A stretch of 32,926 nt of DNA. Source: Solirubrobacteraceae bacterium (lineage in GTDB: Bacteria > Actinomycetota > Thermoleophilia > Solirubrobacterales > Solirubrobacteraceae). Positions 10,901-23,896 of the stretch are shown here, piece by piece. A program made the position numbers and the translations under genes. The stretch spans positions 1 through 32,926 of the forward strand of contig JAJCYD010000036.1 in the NCBI GenBank assembly GCA_029263125.1, read 5' to 3'. Within the stretch, counting starts at the first letter, position 1; each line of letters starts with the position of its first letter. The notes under the pieces are model-generated. The model saw nothing but the letters and a program-made list of their open reading frames with translations, ran no database searches and had not been told where the DNA came from.

Positions 10901-12976
10901 CTACCCGGCGGCCGCGATCGCCGGCGTGCGGCGCGGCTTCTCGGACACCGGCCGCACGTCGACCGCGACGACCTTGTACTCCGGGCACGACGTGTTGACG
11001 TCCGCCGACGGGCCGATCAGCAGGTTCGTGCGGACCTCGGGGAAGTGGAAGGCCGTGAAGACGTGGCCCGGCTCGATGCGCGCGGTCACGTGGGCATGCA
11101 ACTCGATCCGGCCATGGGCGCTTCGCACCGACACGAGCGATCCATCCTCGATCCAGAGCCGCTCCGCGTCGTCTGGATGGATCTCCAGCCACTCCGAGCC
11201 GACGAGGTCGAGGTTGTGTGTTCGCCGCGTCATCGTGCCGGCGTTGTAGTGCTCCAGTCGACGGCCGGTCACGAGGATCACCGGGAATGCGTCTGACACC
11301 TCGCTGCCGGGCGGCTTGTAGGGCAGCGCCGCAAGCAGCGCGCGCCCACCGGGCAGCTCGAAGGCGTCCTCGTAGAGGATCGGCGAGTCCGTGCCGTCGG
11401 CGGCGACCGGCCACTGCAGGCCGCCGCGGCCGATGCGCTCGTGCGAGACGCCGGCCCAGTCGGGCGTCAGCGCGGCGATCTCGTCCATGGCGTCGGCCGG
11501 CGTCTGGAACCCCATGTCGTGGCCGAGCGCCGCGGAGATCGTCGTGAGGATGTCGAAGTCCGTGCGCGCGTCGCCGGGCGGGTCGATCGCCGGCGCCACG
11601 AGCTGGATGCGCCGCTCGGCGTTGGTGAATGTGCCGCCCTTCTCCAGAAACGAGGACGCCGGCAGGACGACGTCGGCGTAGCGCGTCGTCTCGTTCTCGA
11701 AGATGTCCTGCACGACGAGGAGCTCCAGGGACTCCAGTGCGGCGATGACGTGCGTCGTGTCGGGGTCAGTCTGCGCGACGTCCTCGCCGAAGATGTACAT
11801 CGCCTTGAGGTCGCCAGCGACGGCCGCGGAGAACATCTCGGGGATCTTCAGGCCCCGCTCGCGCTTCATGCTCACGCCCCAGCGCTCCTCGAAGCGGCGC
11901 GCAACCGACTCGTCGGCGACCGACTGGTAGCCGGTGAACGTGTCGGGCAGCGCGCCCATGTCCGAGGAGCCCTGGACGTTGTTCTGTCCGCGCAGCGGCA
12001 GCAGCGCGCTGCCCCGCCGCCCGACCTTGCCGCACATCAGCGCGAGGTTGCAGATCAGCCGCACGACCTCCGAGCCATAGCGGTGCTCGGTGACGCCCAG
12101 GCCCCACATGACGCTCGCCTCGCCGGCCTCGGCATAGATGTGCGCGGCGCGCTGCAGGTCGGCCGCGGGCACGCCGCTGATGCGCTGCACGTCGGCGGGG
12201 GTGTAGTCCTCCAGCAGCGCGCGCGTCTCGTCATAGCCCTCGGTACGCGCGGCGAGAAACGGCTGGTCGACGAGCCCGTCGCGCGCCACCACGTGGGCGA
12301 GGCCGAGCATGACCGCGGCATTCGTCCCGGGCCTGGGTGACAGGTGCAGCACGCCGTAGTCGGCCAGCTCGATGCGGCGCGGGTCGATCGTCACGAGCTT
12401 CAGACCGCGCAGGGTCGCCTGCTTGATGCGCGCGCCGGCCACCGGATGTGCCTCGGTCGGGTTCGCGCCGATGAGGATCGCCGCATCGGCGGCCTCGATG
12501 TCGTCGAAGGACCCCGTCGCGCCCGACAGGCCGAAGGACTTGCGCAACGCCCACGATGTGGGGGAGTGGCAGACGCGCGAGCAGTTGTCGATGTTGTGCG
12601 TGCCGATCGCGGCGCGCATCATCCGCTGCATGACGTAGCAGTCCTCGTTGGTGGCGCGCGAGGAGGCCAGGCCGGCGATCGCGTCGGGACCGTCGGCGTC
12701 GCGGATGCGCGTCAGCTCGGAAACGATCAGCGCGATCGCCTCCTCCCAGGAGGCGCGTCGCAGCTCACCGTCGCCGTCTCGGATCAGCGGCGAATCCAGG
12801 CGCTCGCGGTGACGGGAGAACTGGTGGGCGAAGCGGCCCTTCAGGCAGGTGTGGCCCTTGTTCGCCGGTCCGTCGAGCGCCGGCGCGATCGTGATGACCT
12901 TGCCGTCGGAGGCGTGCGCCTCCAGCCGGCAGCCGACGCCACAGTAGCCGCAGGTCGTTGTCAGGTCGCGGTCCAT
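10901..12976 (-). CDS. Formate dehydrogenase catalytic subunit (molybdopterin, NAD-linked type)
   Basis: This is the bis-MGD molybdenum (or tungsten) catalytic subunit that oxidises formate to CO2. The N-terminal [4Fe-4S] motif is complete (C9, C12, C16, C44), with the electron-transfer lysine K46 in CLKG. The active-site cysteine that binds Mo is C136, in NCSRVCHSPT, with the adjacent catalytic H137, so the enzyme is a Cys rather than a selenocysteine form. PLRGQNNVQG carries the formate-positioning arginine of the family. At 691 residues it is a core catalytic subunit without the N-terminal ferredoxin-like extension of FdsA. That part is encoded as a separate gene immediately upstream. The C-terminal molydopterin dinucleotide-binding domain (VILVTGRRLEHYNAGTMTRR) is intact. 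It starts 4 bases after the upstream stop. Confidence 0.96.
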   Translation of the reverse strand: MDRDLTTTCGYCGVGCRLEAHASDGKVITIAPALDGPANKGHTCLKGRFAHQFSRHRERLDSPLIRDGDGELRRASWEEAIALIVSELTRIRDADGPDAIAGLASSRATNEDCYVMQRMMRAAIGTHNIDNCSRVCHSPTSWALRKSFGLSGATGSFDDIEAADAAILIGANPTEAHPVAGARIKQATLRGLKLVTIDPRRIELADYGVLHLSPRPGTNAAVMLGLAHVVARDGLVDQPFLAARTEGYDETRALLEDYTPADVQRISGVPAADLQRAAHIYAEAGEASVMWGLGVTEHRYGSEVVRLICNLALMCGKVGRRGSALLPLRGQNNVQGSSDMGALPDTFTGYQSVADESVARRFEERWGVSMKRERGLKIPEMFSAAVAGDLKAMYIFGEDVAQTDPDTTHVIAALESLELLVVQDIFENETTRYADVVLPASSFLEKGGTFTNAERRIQLVAPAIDPPGDARTDFDILTTISAALGHDMGFQTPADAMDEIAALTPDWAGVSHERIGRGGLQWPVAADGTDSPILYEDAFELPGGRALLAALPYKPPGSEVSDAFPVILVTGRRLEHYNAGTMTRRTHNLDLVGSEWLEIHPDDAERLWIEDGSLVSVRSAHGRIELHAHVTARIEPGHVFTAFHFPEVRTNLLIGPSADVNTSCPEYKVVAVDVRPVSEKPRRTPAIAAAG

Positions 12977-20663: not shown

Positions 20664-20802
20664 TCGCGCGCCCAACCTTAGCAAGGGCACCGTCCTGAAC
20701 CCTACGGACCGCGCCCGTTTCGCGTCTGCCCAGGCGGGAGGCGGCGGGCGTCCGCGCCGGGGCTCGAAGGGCCCTTTGGTACCGTGATCGCGTCCCAACC
20801 GC

Positions 20803-20875
20803 GCCGCTATCGTCCAGGGGACTAGGACGCCGCCCTCTCACGGCGGAAACCCGGGTTCGAATCCCGGTAGCGGTA
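20803..20875 (+). tRNA. tRNA-Glu (anticodon CTC)
   Basis: The acceptor stem GCCGCTA/TAGCGGT has one G-T pair at its first position, as is common in actinobacterial tRNA-Glu, and an A discriminator follows. The anticodon stem-loop CCGCC-CTCTCAC-GGCGG gives anticodon CTC. The T arm CCGGG-TTCGAAT-CCCGG is perfect. CCA is not encoded. The gene faces the tRNA-Leu gene in opposite orientation across about 140 bases. Confidence 0.95.
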
Positions 20876-20931
20876 CTCGAAGGCCCTGCAGGTCATGAGG
20901 CTTTCGCCGTTGAGGCTGGACGGCCCGGACG

Positions 20932-20956
20932 TTTTCACAGCAGCGGATGTGTAAAA
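20932..20956 (+). promoter_or_regulatory. Near-palindrome and possible -10 region before the SufR-like regulator
   Basis: TTTTCACA, an 8-base spacer, then TGTGTAAAA form an imperfect AT-rich inverted repeat (one base inserted in one arm) ending 7 bases before the ATG of the regulator gene. TAAAAT at 20952-20957 could be a -10 box in the right arm. An operator for autoregulation is plausible; the motif resembles the ACA...TGT type of sites used by Fe-S regulators. Confidence 0.4.
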
Positions 20957-20963
20957 TCGGGCC

Positions 20964-21668
20964 ATGGGCACGCCCAAGCCGTCCGGCGATGCGCTGGCAC
21001 AGCCGACGCGCCACCGGCTGTTCGAGCTGCTGGGTGAGCTGCGCCGGCCGGCCGGAACGGAGGATCTCGCTCAGCGCATGGGCCTGCATCCCAACGGCGT
21101 GCGGGTCCATCTCGAGCGTCTACGCGAGGCCGGGCTCGTCGAGCGCGAGCGCACGCGTCAGCCACGGGGGCGGCCGCGAGACATGTGGTCGGTCGCGCCG
21201 CACGCCCGGCCGGGCCCCGAGCCACAGCGGGCGTACGCCGATCTCGGACGCTGGCTGGCGCGCGCGATCTCTCCGACCGCGCGCAGCCTGCGCGACGTCG
21301 AGGCGACCGGTCGGGAGGTCGGCCGCGCGATGGCGGCCGGCGCAGAGGCGGGGACGGCCGAGGAGGCGATGCATGACGCGGTGGCGTCGATGGGCTTCGC
21401 GCCGACGCGCCGGGTCGAGTCCGCGGGCGTCCTGACCTACACGCTGTGCAACTGCCCCTACCGCGAGGCGGTGCGCGAAAACCAGCCCGTCGTCTGCACG
21501 CTGCACCGCGGCATCACCCGCGGGCTGCTGGACGCGATCGCGCCGGAGACGAAGCTGACCGGGTTCGTCGCGCGCGATCCCGTCGCGGCCGGCTGCCTGA
21601 TCGAGCTGAGCGGCGGCCTCGCCGAGCAGGTGGCCGACGCCCTGCCACCCACCGGCGCACCCGGTTGA
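20964..21668 (+). CDS. SufR-like helix-turn-helix regulator with cysteine cluster
   Basis: The 234-residue regulator has an ArsR/DeoR-like winged helix at residues 9-75 (ALAQPTRHRLFELLGEL, DLAQRMGLHPNGVRVHLERL, ERTRQPRGRPRDMWSV). The C-terminal half resembles SufR, the Fe-S-sensing repressor: it has C162, C164, C178 and C211, plus H181, in TLCNCPYREAV, PVVCTLHRGI and AAGCLIEL. Those are likely ligands of an Fe-S cluster or another metal. It is the first gene of a possible operon, followed by a hemerythrin and a CopD-like membrane protein. No suf genes are present nearby, so it is more likely an Fe-S or NO/O2-responsive regulator of its own operon than the suf repressor. Confidence 0.82.
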   Translation: MGTPKPSGDALAQPTRHRLFELLGELRRPAGTEDLAQRMGLHPNGVRVHLERLREAGLVERERTRQPRGRPRDMWSVAPHARPGPEPQRAYADLGRWLARAISPTARSLRDVEATGREVGRAMAAGAEAGTAEEAMHDAVASMGFAPTRRVESAGVLTYTLCNCPYREAVRENQPVVCTLHRGITRGLLDAIAPETKLTGFVARDPVAAGCLIELSGGLAEQVADALPPTGAPG

Positions 21669-21702
21669 CGGTGCTCCGGCGCGCCGGCCCGACGCCAGAG
21701 GC

Positions 21703-22152
21703 ATGAAGCGAGACCCGGCGCTCATCTCGCTCTCGCGCGACCATCACCAGGCGCTCGCGGTCGCGCTGGAGCTGCGCCGCGCGACCACCGCGACGGCGAG
21801 CCGGGCCCGGACGCGGACCCTGCGCTTCTGGGAGACGGCAGGGCGCGAGCACTTCCGGCTCGAGGAGGAGGTGCTGTTCGTGGCCTTCGCCGGTCACGGC
21901 GACCCCCATCACCCGCTGGTCGCTCGCGCCCTGTGCGACCACGTCGCGATCCGCCACCGGATCGACGAGCTCGCCCGCGACGCGGTGCCGGACCCCGATC
22001 GTCTGCGCGAGCTCGGCGTCATGCTCGCCGACCACGTTCGCCTGGAGGAGCGCGAGCTGTTCGTCCTGATCGAGCGGACGCTCCCCAGCGCGCAGCTGGA
22101 GGCCGTCGCCGCCGCCCTGCGGCATGCCGAGGCCGCGGTGAGCGATGGATGA
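21703..22152 (+). CDS. Hemerythrin-domain protein
   Basis: The 149-residue protein is a hemerythrin HHE-type four-helix bundle. Likely di-iron ligands are H14 or H15 (SLSRDHHQAL), H50 and E54 (REHFRLEEEVLF), H79 (DHVAIRHRID) and H116/E120 (ADHVRLEERELF), the pattern expected for the family. Such proteins bind oxygen or nitric oxide or repair Fe-S clusters, like YtfE (RIC). It lies 34 bases downstream of the SufR-like regulator and overlaps the next gene by 8 bases. An iron-based stress or gas-sensing role is likely, but the precise one is unknown. Confidence 0.93.
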   Translation: MKRDPALISLSRDHHQALAVALELRRATTATASRARTRTLRFWETAGREHFRLEEEVLFVAFAGHGDPHHPLVARALCDHVAIRHRIDELARDAVPDPDRLRELGVMLADHVRLEERELFVLIERTLPSAQLEAVAAALRHAEAAVSDG

Positions 22153-22528
22153 CATGTGGACCGCGGTACGGTGGCTGCACGTGCTCGCGATGGCGTTCTT
22201 CGTCGGCGGGCAGCTGCTGCTCGTCGTCGCCGTCGTACCCGTCGCCCGGCGGGCTCCCGATCGCGAGCTGCTGCGCGCGATCGCGCACCGCTTCGGCGTC
22301 GGGACGCTGGTCGCGATCGCCGTGCTGCTGGCGACCGGAAGCGCGATGGCGTTCCACGAGGATCTCTGGGCCAGCGGCAGGCTGCAGCTCAAGCTGATCC
22401 TGGTCGCGCTCGTCGCCGTGCTCGTGATCTGGCACATGCGCCGCCCGGCATGGCACGTCCTGGAGGTCGCGATCTTCGCGGGGTCGCTGGCCATCGTCTG
22501 GCTGGGCCTGACGCTCGTCCACGGCTGA
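22145..22528 (+). CDS. CopD-like four-TM membrane protein
   Basis: The 127-residue protein has four membrane helices, at about residues 5-28, 49-68, 78-96 and 104-124. Histidines in WLHVLAMAFFVGGQ, the loop H and IWHMRRPAWHV are placed as in CopD/YebZ-type and DUF2269 proteins, which can bind b-type haem or copper. It overlaps the hemerythrin gene by 8 bases, so the two are translated together. Haem binding would fit with an electron-transfer or gas-binding role beside hemerythrin, but this is inference. Confidence 0.75.
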   Translation: MDDMWTAVRWLHVLAMAFFVGGQLLLVVAVVPVARRAPDRELLRAIAHRFGVGTLVAIAVLLATGSAMAFHEDLWASGRLQLKLILVALVAVLVIWHMRRPAWHVLEVAIFAGSLAIVWLGLTLVHG

Positions 22529-22588
22529 TCGATCGACCCACGGACGGCGGTCGGGCCATGCCGCCTTGCTGGGAGGGCCGAGCGCTGA

Positions 22589-22617
22589 TAGTTTTCCCAC
22601 CACCAATGGGAAAACTA
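22589..22617 (+). promoter_or_regulatory. Perfect 11-bp inverted repeat before the double-SIS gene
   Basis: TAGTTTTCCCA and its exact reverse complement TGGGAAAACTA are separated by 7 bases (CCACCAA). The repeat ends 3 bases before the Shine-Dalgarno (GGAAGG, 22622-22627) and 16 bases before the GTG start. It is AT-rich in very GC-rich DNA and so stands out. It may be a repressor operator, or an RNA hairpin that would block or regulate translation. There is no T-run, so it is not a standard terminator. Confidence 0.75.
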
Positions 22618-22633
22618 CTCTGGAAGGCTTCGC

Positions 22634-23896
22634 GTGGCTGACCTCATAGACGCCGACCGCGGCTGGGCGCCGGGTCGCGGACCGCTGCTGGACGACCGCA
22701 TCGACGCGCTCCTGCGCGACCGTGAGCGCGCGAGCAGCGCGTTCTTCGAGGACAATGCCGAGCGGATCGCCCGGCTCTGTCACCGGATGGCGGAGCGCTT
22801 CGCGCGCGACGGTCGCCTCGTGGCCTTCGGCGGCGGGCCCGCTGCGCGCTCCGACGCGCGGCACGTGGCGGTCGAGTTCGTTCACCCCGTGATCGTCGGC
22901 AAGCGCGCGCTGCCGGCGCTCGGACTCGCGGGGGAAGGGGGCTCGCTCGCGACGCAGGTCGCGCTCGAGGTCGAGGCCGACGACATCGCGATCGCCTTCG
23001 GCGGCGAGGCCGAGACCGTCGCCGCCACGGCGTCCGCCCGCGCGCGCGGTTGCCTGACGATCGCGTTCGAAGACGACTCGGGCGCCGAGTGGCAGCTCGT
23101 GCCGCCCGCCGGCGCCGAGCCCTTCGTATGCCAGGAGCTCGTCGAGACGCTCTACCACGTGCTCTGGGAGCTCGTCCACGTCTTCCTGGACAACCGAGGA
23201 CTGCTCGAAGGCCGCTCGGCGCGGCCGGTGCACGACAGCGGCGCGTCGAGCTTCCTGTATCCGTTTCTGGGCGAGCAGGAGCACGACCTCGAGGCGATCG
23301 TCGCCGACGTCCGCGCGTCGGTGCTGATGAAGGCCGACGAGACCTGCGCGCTGCGCGCCCGGACCCTCACCGAGGGGCGTCATGCGCTGCTCGCCGCCGC
23401 CGCGCAGCTGCGCGACCGCCTCGACGCCGGCGGCCGTCTGCTGGCGCTGGGCAACGGCGGCTCGGCGACCGACGCGATGGACGTCGTCGCCGACTTCCGC
23501 GCGCCGTTCGCCGACGGCCCGGCCCGGCGCGCGCTGGACCTCACCGAGGACACGTCGATCATCACCGCGATCGCCAACGACATCGGCGTCGACGCGATCT
23601 TCTCCCGCCAGGTGATCGCCCACGGTCGCCGCGGCGACGCGCTGCTGGCGCTGTCGACGAGCGGAAACTCGCAGAGCGTGCTCGCGGGCCTGCGCGAGGC
23701 GCGCACGCGAGGGATGCTGACGATCGCGATGGTCGGCTACGACGGGGGCGCCGTCGCCCGCGACGGGCTCGCCGACCATGTCATCGTCGCGCCCTCGGAG
23801 CACATCCCGCGCATCCAGGAAGCACATGCGAGCGCCTACCACGCACTGCGCGAGCTCGTCGAACGTGCCGATCGCGCACTCCAGAAGGCCGCATGA
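22634..23896 (+). CDS. Double-SIS-domain protein (phosphoheptose-isomerase-like)
   Basis: The 420-residue protein has two sugar-isomerase (SIS) domains. The C-terminal one (about 245-415) is GmhA-like and well conserved, with LLALGNGGSATDAMDVVADF, ALSTSGNSQSVLAGLREAR and IQEAHASAYHALRELVE. The N-terminal one (about 25-190) is degenerate: FGGGPAARSDARHVAVEFVHPV retains the shape but not all binding residues. GmhA converts sedoheptulose 7-phosphate to D-glycero-D-manno-heptose 7-phosphate. SIS proteins of this kind also occur in actinobacterial [NiFe]-hydrogenase maturation clusters, but no hydrogenase genes are in the window. The GTG start at 22634 has a good ribosome-binding site (GGAAGG). 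Confidence 0.88.
   Translation: MADLIDADRGWAPGRGPLLDDRIDALLRDRERASSAFFEDNAERIARLCHRMAERFARDGRLVAFGGGPAARSDARHVAVEFVHPVIVGKRALPALGLAGEGGSLATQVALEVEADDIAIAFGGEAETVAATASARARGCLTIAFEDDSGAEWQLVPPAGAEPFVCQELVETLYHVLWELVHVFLDNRGLLEGRSARPVHDSGASSFLYPFLGEQEHDLEAIVADVRASVLMKADETCALRARTLTEGRHALLAAAAQLRDRLDAGGRLLALGNGGSATDAMDVVADFRAPFADGPARRALDLTEDTSIITAIANDIGVDAIFSRQVIAHGRRGDALLALSTSGNSQSVLAGLREARTRGMLTIAMVGYDGGAVARDGLADHVIVAPSEHIPRIQEAHASAYHALRELVERADRALQKAA

Follow-up and report, generated by a model that had tools for sequence, protein, structure and literature searches.

Three genes lying in a row on the forward strand of a 32,926-nucleotide stretch of Solirubrobacteraceae DNA (contig JAJCYD010000036.1, called the window below; C36 among the contigs of its 3.75 Mb genome) raise the question of what a winged-helix regulator, a hemerythrin and a small membrane protein may be doing together. 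An earlier note, made from the letters of the window alone, took them for an operon that senses and answers nitric oxide (NO), oxygen or iron-sulphur (Fe-S) damage. With moderate confidence, we propose that the regulator is an Fe-S autorepressor resembling ArnR of Corynebacterium glutamicum, that it probably answers NO, and that the hemerythrin is an effector under its control. The starting points for this proposal are the genes themselves, an inverted repeat and the genes that stand behind it, conserved residues and predicted folds.

The regulator begins with a winged helix (Pfam HTH_20, 35.2 bits against a cut-off of 27), and a sequence search of solved structures returned winged-helix chains; neither Pfam nor NCBIfam gave it a curated full-length family name. 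Its description as SufR-like in the earlier note had to be abandoned, as TIGR02702 matched at 17.5 bits against a cut-off of 178.8 and within residues 30-81 alone. Four cysteines had been named as possible ligands and all are present, but C162 is a cysteine in just 5 of 21 sequences, the window included, and was rejected as a ligand. C164, C178 and C211, together with H181, are present in all 21 and invariant in the 46 regulators (of 53 from the window and related loci) that passed a length filter for alignment. By analogy, these three cysteines, probably with H181, would hold an Fe-S cluster. An AlphaFold model (predicted local distance difference test, pLDDT, 90.8; predicted template modelling score, pTM, 0.69) has an ArsR-like winged helix (2p4w) followed by a TRAPP-like half: residues 83-218 of the predicted structure align with TPC6 (2bjn_B) at Z 12.7 and a root mean square deviation (rmsd) of 2.8 over 129 residues, and with Bet3 (1wc8) at Z 11.2 and rmsd 3.0 over 133. 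Foldseek alone gave 2pwn as its sole TRAPP-type match, at rank 48 with E 5.5e-3.

The nearest described regulator is ArnR, an NO-sensing [4Fe-4S] repressor of narKGHJI and hmp with ligands at Cys179, 193 and 223 and a conserved His, and with a TRAPPC3-like sensor domain (PMC12343034). Common to both are the winged helix, the TRAPPC3-like sensor half, the C-x13-C spacing, the conserved His and a tie to nitrate or NO genes. Because ligand pattern and predicted fold match, we call the window regulator ArnR-like in these two respects; orthology to ArnR would be a claim beyond that. The two differ in that presumed ArnR rows (L304-L307) stand elsewhere in our quick, unrooted tree, and in their targets, which here are FdxA, hemerythrin, a membrane protein that we call M5, and RIC, and for ArnR narKGHJI and hmp.

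The repeat was derived from a wider sample. A set of 81 genomes, the window's own included, holds 18 strong orthologues of the regulator (at least 178 bits) and four diverged or broken ones. Scanning of named genomes yielded 52 loci with the regulator, some of which belong to genomes already in the set. Altogether, 73 loci were mapped and labelled with 11 families, and removal of 13 near-duplicates left 60 distinct loci (737,685 bases). By regulator protein, the nearest named relatives belong to the Solirubrobacterales, for instance Paraconexibacter and Conexibacter; across the phylum, 182 of 396 genomes have family matches at E 1e-10 or better. In the 60 regions upstream of the regulator, the inverted repeat TTTTcaCA-N7/8-TGTGyAAAA was seen by eye in its N7 form. 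An unseeded count of exact 4-base dyads found CACA-N7-TGTG and GCCG-N5-CGGC to be commonest, in 11 of 60 regions each, the highest count for any dyad in 200 shuffles being 7.

A scoring matrix seeded with the by-eye consensus placed 116 sites above 14 across the 60 loci, where its mirror image placed 3 and five column-shuffled versions 3, 3, 3, 3 and 5; 83 of the 116 lie near gene starts when one site is counted per gene, and 105 when every site is counted. In held-out halves using the same seed, sites were found at 20/30 and 22/30 regulator upstreams and at 17/300 and 10/283 unlabelled genes (42/60 against 27/583 in total), although the fit at regulator upstreams is partly circular, because the seed came from the same regions, and this holds for the held-out test too and tells to that extent against our proposal. 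In 43 of 60 loci, the regulator has a site no more than 150 bases away (44 have one by another counting rule), in 34 of 60 the site ends 4-14 bases before the start codon, and 14 of 27 gaps between the regulator and a divergent ferredoxin hold two sites.

Just two sites in the window score above 9, one before the regulator (operator 1, 28.6) and one behind the membrane gene (operator 2, 20.4). No place in the 3.75 Mb other than operator 1 matches the N8 pattern without mismatch, and operator 2, with one mismatch, is the genome's best match to the N7 pattern. With up to three mismatches, the N7 and N8 patterns occur at 7 and 9 distinct places genome-wide; with at most one, they occur at the two operators only. 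A mirrored control gave no rows for N7 and 9 for N8 against 10 real ones, so that the looser N8 matches are best regarded as noise. The right arm of operator 1 overlaps TAAAAT (20952-20957), possibly a leaderless -10 element, which ends 6 bases before the ATG, and such spacing is the layout of a leaderless actinobacterial promoter; a promoter scan gave nothing useful. Operator 2 was considered as a terminator and rejected, a simple scan of 20800-22700 having found no terminator-like site. The next N7 match in the genome (two mismatches, matrix score 25.0) lies between the M5 orthologue and the divergent cydAB genes, and overlaps the called M5 start (contig C14; L173, 4662-8725).

The array itself was borne out, with three open reading frames on the same strand, a gap of 34 bases between regulator and hemerythrin, and an 8-base overlap of hemerythrin and membrane gene; the genes are real and probably co-transcribed. 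The middle one is, as had been proposed, a di-iron hemerythrin: PF01814 matches at 47.3 bits against a cut-off of 25.3, and H14, H15, H50, E54, H80, H111 and E115 are invariant in 12 of 12 aligned sequences. A sequence search of solved structures with this protein gave a single weak TetR-family chain.

A search of genome contexts for the trio and a test of ligand conservation, both set beforehand, had mixed outcomes, as three of the four cysteines are invariant and the trio is nearly absent in relatives. Beyond the window it occurs, among the 73 mapped loci, in L135 (JAAYBF010000104.1), where a ferredoxin gene runs divergently and the gap contains two operators; this amounts to 2 of 60 distinct loci, and the trio was rejected as a conserved unit. 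Of the 17 other genomes with a strong orthologue, 8 have the hemerythrin on the same contig as the regulator and about 700 bases or less from it (G007, G066, G046, G063, G054, G023 and, from other orders, G040 and G059), and the membrane gene of these eight is on a separate contig (G063, G054, G059) or was not found. Within three genes of the regulator, the 60 loci hold an FdxA-like ferredoxin in 41 cases, hemerythrin in 24, M5 in 17, a sub-threshold DUF4149-like family (M18) in 6, DUF2269 in 5 and the membrane gene of the trio in 2. With the membrane gene this rare, and with the window locus lacking the ferredoxin, which accompanies the regulator more constantly than any other gene, the unit proper is a larger regulon. 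Its gene set shifts from locus to locus, with some small membrane protein recurring in it, and the trio is one local form of that set. What survives of the proposed sense-and-respond unit is thus its direction towards NO and Fe-S damage, given the three cysteines with a His and an operator common to RIC/ScdA, NirK-like, FdxA and Fe-S-assembly genes; the trio as such is not the unit.

The genes that bear a site give the regulon its character. Sites precede the FdxA-type ferredoxin in 41 of 43 cases, M5 in 5 of 19 and narG in 1 of 13. Further targets, each at single loci, were drawn from 30 otherwise unlabelled site-bearing genes, not all of them named: RIC/ScdA by Pfam and NCBIfam (L072, L116, L142), DUF2249 (L086, L116), FeS_assembly_P (L116, L145), COX1 (L127, L154, L157), COX2 (L076), a NirK-like gene (L088; 185.7 bits, below the cut-off of 296.3) and, in a gap common with the regulator, a chlorite-dismutase-family gene (L142). 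No hmp was recognised among the site-bearing genes, only some of which were scanned and at which no search for hmp was aimed. dnrN (RIC) and nir genes belong to the core of known NO regulons, and the NsrR regulon likewise has dnrN/RIC and nir under one nitrogen-oxide regulator with a palindromic operator; NsrR differs in being of the Rrf2 family and in its operator, gATGyAT-N5-ATrCATc (PMC1274295). Genomes with NarG above cut-off tend to have a strong regulator (7 of 11; p 0.0017, kinship uncorrected).

M5, of about 400 amino acids (aa), matches nothing significantly in Pfam or NCBIfam. About twelve long helices are predicted for it in a model (pLDDT 91.6) that comes closest to CcoN of the cbb3 oxidase (3mk7_A; E 2.9e-6, query template modelling score, TMq, 0.77), with an NO reductase (3ayf; E 0.039, TMq 0.63) further down the list; the likeness to CcoN and NorB is one of predicted fold. 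H38, H165, H183 and H316 (numbered by the first row) are invariant in 13 aligned rows, drawn from 16 matches by omitting three short ones and not including the own-genome copy. M5 occurs in 10 of the 81 genomes, 9 of which have the regulator or a diverged or broken copy (p 1.6e-5; 7.2e-4 against the 18 strong regulators only; kinship uncorrected in both), and all ten have a site above 14 in the M5 locus of about 4.2 kb.

From these observations we infer the Fe-S cluster, NO as the signal, repression as the sign of control and all the activities in the following scheme. The regulator would be a winged-helix repressor of the SufR/ArnR superfamily, probably dimeric, with a TRAPP-like C-terminal domain carrying the cluster ([4Fe-4S] by analogy) on C164, C178, C211 and probably H181. 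The holo-protein would bind the inverted repeat over its own -10 region and before the SIS-domain gene behind operator 2. Because operator 1 covers the possible -10 element, the regulator, once bound there, should shut down its own gene and those that follow, and autorepression would take in regulator, hemerythrin and membrane gene. NO would modify the cluster and bring the repressor off the DNA, and a set for nitrosative stress and nitrate respiration would be expressed; such release is proposed because the [4Fe-4S] form of ArnR binds DNA and its di-nitrosyl form does not (PMC12343034). This set may comprise, in the own genome, the trio, the 12-helix haem-copper-fold M5 and perhaps cytochrome bd and, in relatives, FdxA ferredoxin, RIC/ScdA, a NirK-like enzyme and an Fe-S assembly factor. 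The hemerythrin would serve to remove NO or to handle iron, and could act like a hemerythrin-like di-iron protein of M. kansasii, an NO peroxidase proposed to counter NO (PMC8913304), to which it is likened at the level of a di-iron protein, not by subfamily. The membrane protein would be an accessory, perhaps binding haem.

We offer a bolder version tentatively, and doubt that it is right in all its parts: an undescribed NO regulon of the Thermoleophilia (Solirubrobacterales), in which an ArnR-like Fe-S repressor has its own 24-25 bp operator, hemerythrin and the minimal M5 replace Hmp and classical NO reductase in NO removal, and FdxA is a dedicated paralogue. What is new is the operator, together with the genes that it tags next to an ArnR-like regulator in the Solirubrobacterales. 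In one open-access library we found no report linking COG2345 with nitric oxide or dealing with NO and transcriptional regulators in Solirubrobacterales and, among the matches listed from 2018 on, none naming ArnR-like proteins. If the proposal is true, soil actinobacteria of this order, which are difficult to cultivate, gain a named regulator of nitrosative stress along with the DNA site that it uses and the genes that it targets. It would also give the hemerythrin and an unannotated haem-copper-fold protein a function by regulon, and extend Cys3-His ArnR-like repressors well past Corynebacterium. The operator sequence makes the reading directly testable.

Several observations weigh against an NO regulon of this kind. 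For seventeen of the 60 regulators, the nearest 150 bases contain no site; the hemerythrin has a site of its own in just 1 of 25 cases, and the hemerythrin loci of three regulator-bearing genomes (G064, G039, G030) have none above 12. Homologues of the membrane gene elsewhere have a site above 13 in 0 of 19 loci, so this gene was rejected as a general member of the regulon. Nar genes occur within six genes of the regulator in just 10 of 60 loci, and narGHJI-narK of the own genome was set aside as a target, having no site above 11. NirK above cut-off was found in none of the 81 genomes; in the own genome, the best match (84.1 bits, covering positions 29-148 of 326) was rejected. On contig C43 of the own genome, two unassigned places reach matrix scores of 21.8 and 19.2. 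One genome that is 97% complete has M5 with a strong operator (28.1; L325, G053:C1:96620-97819), and no regulator orthologue was found in it. Lastly, the label 'NnrS-like' for a further membrane family of about 400 aa was dropped, as neither Pfam nor NCBIfam supported it; nor did a profile comparison show this family to be similar to M5.

The main rival, and a serious one, is a general regulator of Fe-S status or oxidative damage of the SufR type, in which loss of the cluster to O2, peroxide or iron shortage derepresses ferredoxin, an Fe-S assembly factor, RIC and hemerythrin, and NO is one insult among several. We regard it as possible but less probable than our own proposal. SufR is a neighbouring family: Rv1460 has a winged helix, three conserved C-terminal cysteines that it needs (C203, C216, C244) and autorepression, but its spacing is C-x12-C (PMC6034842), and SufR-like rows of our tree have Asp where the window regulator has H181. 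FeS_assembly_P and FdxA among the site-bearing targets suit this rival, as do relatives of the regulator that adjoin Mrp-type genes elsewhere, six of them Asp-type and nine His-type (L211-L214, L216, L218, L221, L224, L234). The nine adjoin Mrp-type Fe-S carriers and five of them a HesB-type gene as well (representatives scanned), which counts against the NO reading, since the His pattern alone is then no proof of NO. Asp-type L230-L232 adjoin, besides an Mrp-type gene, a class-V aminotransferase of cysteine-desulfurase fold.

The tree speaks the other way. Among its 74 rows (23 hand-picked Solirubrobacterales and 51 others above 44 bits and 165 aa), those with C-x12-C-x2-Asp form a separate clade (6 rows, 99% by the Shimodaira-Hasegawa-like approximate likelihood ratio test, SH-aLRT), and those with C-x13-C-x2-Asn another (7 rows, 100%). 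The remaining rows are His-type, except L247 (Asp), L309 (Glu) and L090, which the script's pattern did not catch; they include the window regulator and the presumed ArnR rows, two of which (L305, L307; C-x13/14-C-x2-H) have narH in the same stretch. With TIGR02702 well below its cut-off, and NirK-like and nar neighbours as well as M5 indicating nitrogen oxides, the Fe-S-damage regulator loses ground. Superfamily members of a third type (C-x13-C-x2-N ... CC), seen in L233, L318 and L319, face the end of an operon containing narGH in convergent orientation.

A second rival would have the regulator sense low O2 and govern the choice of respiratory chain, controlling cytochrome bd, haem-copper proteins, nar and hemerythrin as an O2 store. 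Hemerythrins bind O2, the own genome has its site between M5 and cydAB, and sites precede COX1 in L127, L154 and L157 and COX2 in L076. We nonetheless think this switch quite unlikely, RIC being a gene of NO and iron damage, and ArnR losing its cluster very slowly in O2 and being termed 'not an O2 sensor' (PMC12343034). That the trio came together by chance, the genes downstream of the regulator being unrelated to it, fits its rarity and the operator-free membrane-gene homologues elsewhere, and holds best for the membrane gene alone, but is very improbable overall, as hemerythrin is the first gene to follow the regulator on its strand in 12 of 34 cases and often close by otherwise, and both trio loci show the hemerythrin/membrane overlap and an operator before the regulator. 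The present evidence does not distinguish NO, O2 and general Fe-S damage as the signal, and our preference for an ArnR-like repressor answering NO is to be read in this light.

Table 1. Features of the window around the three genes (forward-strand positions)
Feature	Position	Strand	Remarks
tRNA-Glu gene	20803-20876		upstream of the trio
Operator 1, inverted repeat TTTTCACA-N8-TGTGTAAAA	20932-20956	+	ends 7 bases before the regulator ATG
ArnR-like winged-helix regulator, 234 aa	20964-21668	+	C164-x13-C178-x2-H181-x29-C211
Hemerythrin-domain (HHE) di-iron protein, 149 aa	21703-22152	+	PF01814
Small hydrophobic membrane protein, 127 aa	22145-22528	+	family matches all sub-threshold
Operator 2, inverted repeat TTTTCCCA-N7-TGGGAAAAC	22592-22615	+	perfect 9-base arms counting the preceding G
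Tandem SIS-domain protein, 420 aa	22634-23896	+	PF13580, 81.1 bits; candidate additional target of operator 2

For the membrane protein of the trio (Table 1), the suggested name CopD-like was not borne out (NCBIfam NF033808, 10.1 bits against a cut-off of 195), and the matches to UPF0093 (PF03653, 15.7 against 34.2) and DUF4149 (PF13664, 15.5 against 24.6) were likewise too low. Alignment with three DUF2269 (PF10027) rows gave an hhalign probability of 29%, and a sequence search of solved structures gave no match. The suggestion that its histidines could bind haem fared better: H97 is kept in 16 of 16 homologues and H12 in 15 of them, the remaining one (L099) being truncated by a contig end, and both are possible ligands because of this conservation. 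In one genome with no regulator orthologue (G056) and no operator at the place, hemerythrin and membrane gene terminate a nar operon (L098, 6067-11046).

The fullest regulator locus is L142 (2581-5323 and 7001-10153), with six operator sites in 14.7 kb. RIC, DUF2249-like, DUF59-like and unnamed membrane (about 400 aa) genes stand in a row there; regulator, M5, hemerythrin, ferredoxin and M18, the chlorite-dismutase-family gene, narH and part of narG are also present. A conserved membrane family of about 330-406 aa (A10), with no significant Pfam match in the members scanned, lies near the regulator in L142, L072, L086, L116, L128 and L145.

Further afield, a His-type member in L242 adjoins FdxA and a DUF2249 protein of which one part matches hemerythrin below threshold, and another in L240 adjoins a protein similar to the latter, both in genomes of 8-9 Mb. 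In L310, L313 and L227, a His-type regulator lies near the unnamed family of about 400 aa and a protein of about 855 aa, and in L222 near a protein of the latter type alone. The protein of about 855 aa in L310 (6046-10308) fuses an M5-like membrane part to cupredoxin/multicopper domains, and is perhaps a membrane-fused nitrite reductase. Neighbourhoods of the L240, L242 and L310 types fit nitrite or NO as a theme.

In the window itself, the SIS gene starts 18 bases after operator 2, and a phosphosugar-isomerase-like gene is unexpected company for such a regulon. At 10901-12976 on the minus strand, an open reading frame of 691 aa with weak matches to narG profiles is probably another molybdopterin oxidoreductase.

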